Below are positions 10,171-11,959 of a stretch of 41,112 nt of DNA, in pieces. The stretch lies in assembly GCA_017462545.1 (NCBI GenBank), contig JAFTQX010000041.1, positions 1 to 41,112 of the forward strand, written 5' to 3'. Origin of the DNA: Clostridia bacterium. GTDB taxonomy: Bacteria > Bacillota > Clostridia > Oscillospirales > CAG-272. The number at the start of each line of letters is the position of its first letter. Positions within the stretch are counted from its first letter, which is position 1. The notes beneath the pieces were generated by a model. That model ran no database searches. It worked only from the letters and a program-made list of their open reading frames with translations, and was not told where the DNA came from. The position numbers and the translations under genes were made by a program.

Positions 10171-10217
10171 TTTGTTTTTCGGAATTTGAAAAAATTTAAC
10201 ACATACAGAAAAAGAAA

Positions 10218-10238
10218 GCGGCGCCCCTCGGGCGCCGC
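10218..10238 (-). terminator. Terminator of the flotillin gene
   Basis: A 9-bp GC stem GCGGCGCCC/GGGCGCCGC with loop CTC, followed on the minus strand by TTTCTTTTT. About 40 nt past the stop. Confidence 0.85.
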
Positions 10239-10278
10239 CCTGCTTTTTGCTATGGTTTTTTGCGGTTAAGCGGTGAAA

Positions 10279-11715
10279 TTACTTTCCTTCCGCGATGGTC
10301 TTGGCGGCGGCTGAGCCGGCTACGGCACCGGAGATCAGCGAGGTGATATCAATGCCGGTCGACTCCTTCACGCCCTCCATGATCTGGTTGGCGGAGGTCA
10401 TGACATCGCGCACGACCTTGGTCGCATTGCCATCGCCGTACATGACGATCTTATCCGTCTGCGAAAGAGGAGCAGCAGCATTCTTGACCACCTCAGGCAG
10501 CGTGGCGAGATACATTTCGAGGACGGACGCTTCGCCCATCTTCTTTTGTGCCTCTGCCTTCTTTTCGATGGCCTCGGCCTCGGCTAGACCCTTGGCGCGG
10601 ATACCCTCGGCCTCCTGCTCCATGGCGTAACGGGCGGCCTCTGCCTGCGCACGACGCGCCTCGGCCTCCTTGATGGCCTGATACATCTCGGCCTCGGCGG
10701 CCTCCTGCATCTCGTAACGGCGAGCCTCGGCTTCCTTTTGACGCTTGATCAGCTCTGCCTCGGCATCCTTTTCGGTCTTGTACTTCATGGCATCGGCCTG
10801 CTTGCGGATCTCGGCATCCAGCTGACGCTCCTTGAGCGCGATCTCCTTCTCGGCCAGCTCGGCTTCCTTTTCCTTACGCGCGATGTCCGCGTTCGTGCGG
10901 GCGATCTCGATGGTACGACGCTGGTTCTCCTCCTGGATGGAGTAGGCGGCGTCTGCCTCTGCGCGCTTGGTGTCGGCCAGCACCTTCATGTCGGCCTGAC
11001 GTACCGAAAGCTCGGCATTCTGCTCGGCGATCTTCTTCTCTGCCTCAACCTTGACAGCGTTTGCCTCCTCCTGTGCGTTGGCGGTGGCAATGGCAATATC
11101 ACGCTGCGCGTTCGCCTTGGCGATCTGCGCGGTCTTGCGGATCTGCTCTACGTTGTCAATACCCATGTTTTCAATGGTACCGGCATCATCCTTGAAATTC
11201 TGAATATTAAAGTTAACGACCTCAATACCCAGCTTTTCCATATCCGGCACAACGTTCTCGGTGATCTGCTTGGCAACACCCTGACGATCCTGCACCATGT
11301 CCTTGAGTCCGACAGAGCCAACGATCTCACGCATGTTACCCTCCAGCACCTGGGTGACCAGGCTGGTCAGATCGGTGTGGCGCATGCCGAGCAGCGATTC
11401 TGCCGCGCGGGCAAGCAGCTCGGGCTTAGAGGAGATCTTGATGTTGGCAACGCCGTCTACCGATACGTTGATGAATTCGCAGGTCGGTACGGCTTCGGTG
11501 GTTTTAATGTCCACCTGCATGACCTTGAGCGAGAGACGGTCCACACGCTCAAAGAACGGAACGTGCCAGCCGGCGCGGCCGATGAGAATGCGGCGCGTCT
11601 TTTTGAGACCCGAAATGATGTAGGCGGTGTCCGGCGGGGCTTTGAGGTAACCGGCAACAAAAATGACGAGCACGAGCACGGCTACTACGATGGCGGCGGT
11701 GATGATGGGAGACAT
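10279..11715 (-). CDS. Flotillin-like SPFH-domain protein
   Basis: A 478-residue membrane-associated scaffold of ordered membrane microdomains. Residues 4-26 are one hydrophobic segment, about 30-200 the SPFH/band-7 domain (PDTAYIISGLKK, then GRAGWHVPFFERVDRLSL), and about 215-400 a long Ala/Glu-rich coiled coil with repeated 'AEAEAxxRRYEMQEA' patterns; the tail ends in AAAKTIAEGK. This matches FloT/YuaG. The ATG at 11715 follows AGGAGGAAAAACCTT. The frame extends 60 codons upstream, but that part is the riboswitch and its terminator, not protein. Stand-alone: no NfeD gene next to it. Expression should depend on Mn2+ through the upstream leader, which is unusual for this family. Confidence 0.92.
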   Translation of the reverse strand: MSPIITAAIVVAVLVLVIFVAGYLKAPPDTAYIISGLKKTRRILIGRAGWHVPFFERVDRLSLKVMQVDIKTTEAVPTCEFINVSVDGVANIKISSKPELLARAAESLLGMRHTDLTSLVTQVLEGNMREIVGSVGLKDMVQDRQGVAKQITENVVPDMEKLGIEVVNFNIQNFKDDAGTIENMGIDNVEQIRKTAQIAKANAQRDIAIATANAQEEANAVKVEAEKKIAEQNAELSVRQADMKVLADTKRAEADAAYSIQEENQRRTIEIARTNADIARKEKEAELAEKEIALKERQLDAEIRKQADAMKYKTEKDAEAELIKRQKEAEARRYEMQEAAEAEMYQAIKEAEARRAQAEAARYAMEQEAEGIRAKGLAEAEAIEKKAEAQKKMGEASVLEMYLATLPEVVKNAAAPLSQTDKIVMYGDGNATKVVRDVMTSANQIMEGVKESTGIDITSLISGAVAGSAAAKTIAEGK

Positions 11716-11786
11716 AAGGTTTTTCCTCCTATATAAAAATATTTTTTTGGGTTTGCGCAAGCCTTGGGCAAAAGGAGCAAGGCCAC

Positions 11787-11923
11787 AAAAAAAGACCTTT
11801 AACACAGCGTACGACCATGTTAAAAGTCTCGTTCTTTTTGCAGGATACACGCGCCGAGCTCTTACGAACTGACATGACGATCGCGTGAACAGCAACGAAC
11901 GTTGCTGTGAACTACTCCCTTTG
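11787..11923 (-). ncRNA. yybP-ykoY Mn2+ riboswitch with intrinsic terminator
   Basis: Read on the minus strand, the leader matches the yybP-ykoY class element by element: AAAGGGAGTAG (11922-11912), a P2 hairpin ACAGCAACGTTCGTTGCTGT, a P3 stem CACGCG...CGCGTG enclosing ATCGTCA (11881-11875, the metal-binding loop) and a CGG before the 3' arm, and the closing GAGACTTTT (11830-11822). The same order is found in the Lactococcus aptamer. Directly after it, GACTTTTAACA pairs with TGTTAAAGGTC, followed by seven more T's: an intrinsic terminator that shares GACTTTT with the aptamer's closing helix. Ligand binding should therefore prevent termination (an ON switch). The known ligand of this class is Mn2+. 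Confidence 0.9.
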
Positions 11924-11930
11924 TGATTTT

Positions 11931-11959
11931 ATTATAGCATTACTTTTATCGTTTGTCAA
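11931..11959 (-). promoter_or_regulatory. Consensus promoter of the riboswitch-flotillin unit
   Basis: TTGACA (11959-11954), 17-nt spacer, TATAAT (11936-11931) on the minus strand. Transcription would begin within a few bases of the first aptamer helix. Confidence 0.9.

Follow-up and report, generated by a model that had tools for sequence, protein, structure and literature searches.

The role of bacterial flotillins is still debated. In B. subtilis, floT is controlled by sigma-W, and to our knowledge no riboswitch is known at the FloT and FloA flotillins of that species. Both proteins were recovered together with the TerC proteins MeeF and MeeY, which metalate exported enzymes, according to the accessible excerpt of PMC10550928. 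In M. tuberculosis, zinc-efflux foci of a P-ATPase exclude FloT and need no flotillin, as stated in the available portion of PMC9374683; the analogy of a metal-efflux platform was set aside, as that portion speaks against a flotillin role in the mycobacterial zinc-pump foci.

The closest described riboswitch is the L. lactis yoaB riboswitch, of family RF00080, which controls a P-type ATPase. There, Mn2+ bound between loops L1 and L3 stabilises a weak helix, P1.1, and prevents an overlapping terminator from forming (accessible parts of PMC11087558 and PMC6754395). Residue A41 of this RNA reads the Mn2+, and its L3 is UCAAUUC (PMC6754395, in part). The excerpt available of one review calls Mn2+ riboswitches OFF switches (PMC11477304), whereas the primary studies describe an ON mechanism. 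The riboswitch class itself is already known. In the open-licence PMC text that was searched, no account of its conserved use on a flotillin turned up.

The leader described here lies in a contig of a Clostridia bacterium (JAFTQX010000041.1), of which the whole stretch analysed, 41,112 nucleotides, is called the window. The leader is very probably a riboswitch of the yybP-ykoY (Mn2+) class that acts by terminating transcription, with flotillin as its sole target in this transcription unit. All of its parts lie within 11787-11959 on the minus strand, a strand that the initial annotation did not give. The features of the locus are, in order of transcription:

11954..11959, minus strand: -35 hexamer TTGACA, which together with the -10 hexamer makes 12 of 12 promoter matches with a 17-nt spacer
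11931..11936, minus strand: -10 hexamer TATAAT with TG in front, of a sigma-70-type promoter (12/12)
11822..11924, minus strand: aptamer of the yybP-ykoY (Mn2+) type, matched by the covariance models R1 and R2
11919..11922, minus strand: 5' strand of P1.1, the switch helix (AAAG), pairing with CUUU at 11826-11823
11913..11918, minus strand: 5' side of L1 (GGAGUA), with its 3' side (GAGA) at 11830-11827; motif kept in relatives
11909..11912, minus strand: 5' strand of P1.2 (GUUC), pairing with GAAC at 11834-11831; predicted unaided at 100-110 nt of transcript
11716..11895, minus strand: open frame through the leader in the ORF listing, which would add 60 false residues from a TTG
11871..11877, minus strand: L3 loop UCAUGUC, with A11875 as the counterpart of L. 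lactis A41
11787..11829, minus strand: intrinsic terminator with a stem of 17 pairs and a T-run ending at 11787
11725..11730, minus strand: ribosome-binding site AGGAGG, read from sequence
10279..11715, minus strand: FloT-like flotillin gene, 478 aa from ATG, with SPFH/Band_7 and Flot domains
10205..10243, minus strand: strong terminator 3' of flotillin, followed by a VTT-domain gene with its own promoter-like sequence

The tight order of promoter, aptamer and terminator that had been described was borne out by the 12/12 promoter, the R1 match at 11924-11822 and the terminator at 11829-11787. Judged by the spacing from the promoter, transcription probably starts near 11924, which would place the aptamer at the extreme 5' end of the transcript. 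The warning that automatic annotation would hide the RNA in a false 60-residue extension was exact: the ORF listing starts at the TTG at 11895, 60 codons before the ATG at 11715.

P1.1, P1.2, P2, P3/P3.1/P3.2, L1 and L3 can all be read in the sequence. P1.2, P2 and P3 are clear, and no fourth arm (P4 of the four-way junction) is predicted in the window; the P4 region varies among relatives, and the models treat it as unpaired. For the 141 nt of 11920-11780 the folding z is -4.2, and none of 200 shuffled sequences was equally stable. As the initial annotation had it, the closing helix of the aptamer shares bases with the terminator, whose 5' arm includes the 3' strand of P1.1 (CUUU, 11826-11823), so P1.1 and the terminator are mutually exclusive. 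The terminator hairpin is strong (-17.4 kcal/mol by folding). A simple terminator scan of the window found one against 1.3 expected, no better than chance, and the case for the terminator therefore rests on its overlap with P1.1 and on conservation.

Compared with L. lactis yoaB, as its accessible descriptions give it (PMC11087558, PMC6754395), the leader has the same L1-L3 metal site, with an L3 of the form UCA-N3-C, and the same weak P1.1 whose 3' strand doubles as the terminator 5' arm. It differs in that its target is a flotillin and not a P-type ATPase, its P1.1 has four pairs, no fourth arm is predicted, and its score is below Rfam detection. The protein resembles B. subtilis FloT and FloA in having the SPFH/Band_7 domain (PF01145, 6.7e-23, 82.1 bits, cut-off 23.6) and the Flot domain (PF15975, 4.3e-6, 27.3 bits, cut-off 27), and in matching the NCBI FloT model NF058507 (7e-84, 282.5 bits). 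Unlike B. subtilis FloT it stays under that model's 700-bit equivalog cut-off, so it is called FloT-like and not filed as FloT.

A motif scan found the same leader before many flotillin orthologues, and a covariance model was built from these sequences. The alignment A2 and the model R1 hold 26 of the 31 near-non-redundant flotillin aptamers (38 in all); excluded were the window itself, G028 as its nearest relative, and three leaders that looked odd (L040, L071, L086). Run on the initial MAFFT alignment, RNAalifold recovered no helix other than P3/P3.1 and was replaced by helices written by hand from the known yybP-ykoY architecture and then tested. In A2, 90.1% of cells pair and 16 of 25 pairs are changed on both sides, with a covariation of 0.477 against 0.184 when shuffled and at most 0.141 when slid. 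For A3, an alignment of 46 matches (one an exchanger leader) fitted to R1, the covariation was 0.661 against 0.200 shuffled and at most 0.162 slid, and all five helices covary; P1.2 covaries in the relatives in A2 and A3 alike. On the 41-kb window the sole R1 match is the leader (48.6 bits, E 9.8e-10).

The second model, R2, was made from 18 leaders found with RF00080, none of them of a flotillin. By similarity to reference proteins, the source loci are 8 P-type ATPases, 4 MntP, 2 Na+/Ca2+ exchangers (CaCA) and 4 without a match. On the window its sole match is again the leader (41.4 bits, E 3.5e-8), and among the best 80 of 274 flotillin loci in the named genome collection it matches the leaders of 44; its 45th match, L072:6646-6729, precedes a separate exchanger-like gene. 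R1 in turn recovers 19 of the 23 RF00080-derived loci, which are themselves below the Rfam cut-off; 18 of the 19 have an E of 0.0025 or lower. The four that escape R1 are L122, L123, L124 and L183, and RF00080 matches L183 at 35.8 bits. Homology to accepted yybP-ykoY members is found in R2's match to the window and R1's matches to these 19 loci, and since R1 served to align the rows of R2, the independence of the two models extends to their sequences and not to their alignment. The window also has the L1 motif flanked by P1.1 and P1.2 (GGAGUA...GAGA, AAAG/CUUU, GUUC/GAAC) and an L3 with the invariant Mn2+-contacting A (UCAUGUC, A11875). The proposal that a Mn2+ (yybP-ykoY) riboswitch controls the flotillin gene is thus supported by two models blind to the window, by 45 of the best 80 of 274 loci, and by covariation in five helices.

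The leader stands before flotillin in those 45 of the 80 orthologous loci (best 80 of 274), at 140-370 nt from the gene. Among the 73 of these loci with at least 400 nt of upstream sequence, 44 carry it. No R1 match was found in 35 of the 80, or in 29 of the 73. A set of relatives was gathered as well, in which 42 of 117 genomes (own included) had a flotillin-like match at E<=1e-20, some distant; there 22 of 28 loci carry the leader, the window's own included and the partial loci L030 and L031 outside the scan. The 80-locus and 28-locus sets overlap and together give 57 distinct aptamers. In a scan that admitted only stems starting within 14 nt of the P1.1 3' strand, the best terminator hairpin starts at that strand in 57 of 57 leaders. 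By a visual count without a shuffled control, a promoter with 10 or more of the 12 matches precedes 50 of the 57; one of the 57 has no upstream sequence. The closest relative keeps the leader at 72% nucleotide identity.

A quick tree was made of 90 distinct flotillins, 59 of them with the leader. The leader label needs 11 changes on it against 25.9 when shuffled, which indicates an old association with losses or re-gains; at least five changes are forced by well-supported branches. Neither R1 nor R2 finds a leader at E<=0.01 for any of the 16 flotillins of other families of the class, outside the window's own genome, two of which are nonetheless 79-80% identical to the query. The link between flotillin and leader thus belongs to one broad clade. 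The initial annotation had looked to related genomes for conservation of the leader, and this held in part: it is kept in 45 of the best 80 of 274 loci and absent from the other 35 and from all 16 other-family flotillins. Three R1 matches near other-family flotillins (E 0.012-0.34) look like chance, lacking GGAGUA or lying on the opposite strand, and weak R1 matches near the distant flotillins L218 and L225 were read and rejected as chance. Near the flotillins of L006, L010, L018 and L019 there are matches to the Gut-1 RNA (RF01706) of up to 49 bits, with a gathering threshold of 50.

The metal-site loops were compared between flotillin leaders and others in two sets that were both found with R1, a model that favours such loops: GGAGUA stands in L1 of 41 of the 43 flotillin leaders and of all 50 others, and the third base of L3, the A41 position, is A in 39 of 43 and 50 of 50, and also in the window (A11875). 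In both loops, flotillin leaders thus agree with the leaders of ATPases, exchangers and mntP. The mntP leaders of related Clostridia (L116, L119, L120, L177, MntP by similarity), also found by R1 and RF00080, have an L3 of the ACA type (GUCAACA) as in Xanthomonas oryzae and not of the UCGUCA type. The four remaining flotillin leaders (L040, L048, L049, L071) have ACUAAA(G)C as their L3, with loss or displacement of the A41 position. The leader of L077 also falls in this subgroup, without the canonical UCA. From their loops, these five leaders are a candidate case of an altered ligand.

Could the whole flotillin group be related to yybP-ykoY but have a pocket that now reads another ion, such as Fe2+, Zn2+, Co2+ or a mixed metal signal, so that flotillin answers that ion? 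Breaker's review, in its accessible part, warns that some RNAs classed among the Mn2+ riboswitches are probably variants for different divalent ions, which would explain odd targets (PMC7266159). Mn2+ is accordingly named here as the probable ligand by resemblance of the loops. The presence of OAD_beta and CitMHS among the targets of the R1 group, and the four of 43 flotillin leaders with ACUAAA(G)C, would fit such a shift. Against it, flotillin leaders have the L1 and L3 of pump leaders, at the R1-based frequencies given above, and the UCAUGUC of the window is near the UCAAUUC of L. lactis (PMC6754395, available portion). We consider a shifted pocket unlikely, and the reading of the leader as a Mn2+ riboswitch is kept in what follows.

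The RF00080 covariance model, which the initial annotation had proposed to run, gave no significant score: there was no match in the window even at E<=10, nor at the locus in the genome scan. The leader thus falls short of the 45-bit gathering threshold, which is a detection threshold and not a structural feature. None of the 117 relatives and none of the 245 class genomes reaches that cut-off, so the silence of RF00080 in the window says little. At E<=1e-4 in the class sample, RF00080 matches 14 of 245 genomes and R1 62 of 245. An Rfam scan took in 15 loci, made up of 14 flotillin loci and the ATPase copy in the window's own genome. In two of these, L018 and L019, the flotillin leaders match RF00080 directly at 28 bits, with E of 7e-4 and 8e-4 over the 63 kb scanned, and the other 13 have no match at E<=5. 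RF00080 is insensitive in this group and under-reports. Being negative in the window and never above cut-off in the class sample, it was dropped as the only test in favour of our own models. The Rfam model at its cut-off misses many switches in Clostridia, and regulon counts for Clostridia are therefore too low.

That the locus is an ordinary constitutive promoter with a leaky terminator or attenuator, resembling the motif by chance, would agree with the missing RF00080 match and with a terminator scan not above chance beside a hairpin that is itself strong (-17.4 kcal/mol), but it is contradicted by blind recognition by R1 and R2, covariation in all helices and the 72% identity of the leader in the closest relative, and we reject it as scarcely credible. 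Equally far-fetched is a genuine Mn2+ riboswitch whose real target is the next gene, with flotillin as a passenger: a same-strand ORF starts within 60 nt of the flotillin stop in 6 of 43 loci, but the ORFs that follow differ between loci, 33 of 43 have a terminator-like hairpin after the flotillin gene (a permissive scan without a shuffled control), and this survey of downstream ORFs led us to reject it. In the window, flotillin looks monocistronic, with its strong terminator and then the separate promoter-like sequence before the VTT-domain gene. Flotillin is therefore kept as the target.

How the switch might work was approached by folding. In the growing transcript, P1.2, P2 and P3 are formed at 100-110 nt. 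The P1.1 register AAAG/CUUU was not formed in the free fold; at 103-110 nt the pairing GGGAGU/ACUUUU is preferred. At equilibrium, forcing P1.1 and P1.2 in the full leader costs 11.5 kcal/mol relative to the fold with the terminator. Given this difference and the other closing register, switching must be kinetic and aided by the ligand. OFF is predicted from these folds to be the default, with ON needing the ligand during transcription.

Four leaders (L027, L052, L101, L113) show a joint change in the P1.1 5' strand, in the strand that P1.1 and the terminator share (here GUUU) and in the 3' arm of the terminator (here GCGUCU), as is expected if the aptamer and terminator folds both matter. These four form one well-supported clade on the quick tree. 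Fixed alignment columns show them as ACAG/CGTT with mismatches; their P1.1 may instead be AAAC/GUUU with a bulged A, and the joint change may have been a single event.

By analogy with L. lactis, Mn2+ would turn flotillin ON. At low Mn2+ the terminator would win and flotillin would be off; with Mn2+ bound, L1 would dock on L3 and P1.1 would be stabilised, the terminator would be blocked, and flotillin would be transcribed. With less confidence, flotillin might be raised jointly with a P-type cation ATPase that carries its own copy of the switch, and the joint rise might help the cell to export Mn2+ or to load its membrane enzymes and exported enzymes with Mn.

The window's own genome has two R1 matches, one before flotillin and one before this P-type cation ATPase. 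The second (L125, G000:C36:4787-4877:-) scores 49.2 bits and is directly 5' of the ATPase gene, which has PF00122, PF00690 and PF13246 in the 485 residues available and a PMR1-type model as its best NCBIfam match, below cut-off. It resembles the window's leader in its terminator (79% over 55 nt) and L1, and differs in its L3 region, CCGUCAGCC, which is shorter. It has no R2 match at E<=1. Three genomes, this one, G028 and G054, each have one R1 leader or more before a flotillin and before a P-type ATPase alike.

The presence of the leader before flotillin, and not only before metal pumps, suggests that the Mn2+ level sets the amount of the scaffold. A larger reading can be offered tentatively, as a possibility that we hold with somewhat more doubt than belief: in a large clade of gut Clostridia, flotillin may be a dedicated Mn2+-response protein, raised by a Mn2+-ON riboswitch along with P-type pumps, with its scaffolding part of Mn2+ export or of delivery to membrane enzymes. 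A metal-sensing RNA before flotillin in dozens of genomes gives the protein a defined input signal and a direct route to its function, and the regulon of Mn2+ riboswitches is widened past transporters and TerC-type proteins.

Other targets of the group were surveyed with R1. There are 44 matches in 41 of the 117 genomes (own included): 23 before flotillin (22 by blastp and one at a contig end by reading), 11 before P-type ATPases, 6 before OAD_beta, and one each before CaCA, CitMHS, MntP and an unknown gene. The wider class sample gave 68 matches, 66 of them outside the window's own genome; the 29 loci examined had 10 ATPases, 10 OAD_beta, 5 CaCA, 3 CitMHS, one without a match and no flotillin.

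OAD_beta, the beta subunit of Na+-transporting decarboxylases, is a frequent target, with 6 of the relatives' 44 matches and 10 of the 29 class loci examined; the assignment is by PF03977 in L146 and L188 and by similarity in the 14 others. These proteins may be unrecognised metal exporters. CitMHS/ArsB-like transporters stand behind the riboswitch in L151, L189 and L205 (by Pfam) and in L207 (by similarity). In genome G066, an R1 leader is followed by a 587-residue protein (L161:186-1946:-) with no Pfam match at E<=1e-4 and no NCBIfam match at E<=1e-10. At L072:6646-6729:-, a second riboswitch lies about 3.7 kb from the flotillin leader, before a gene that reads in frame as Na+/Ca2+-exchanger-like.
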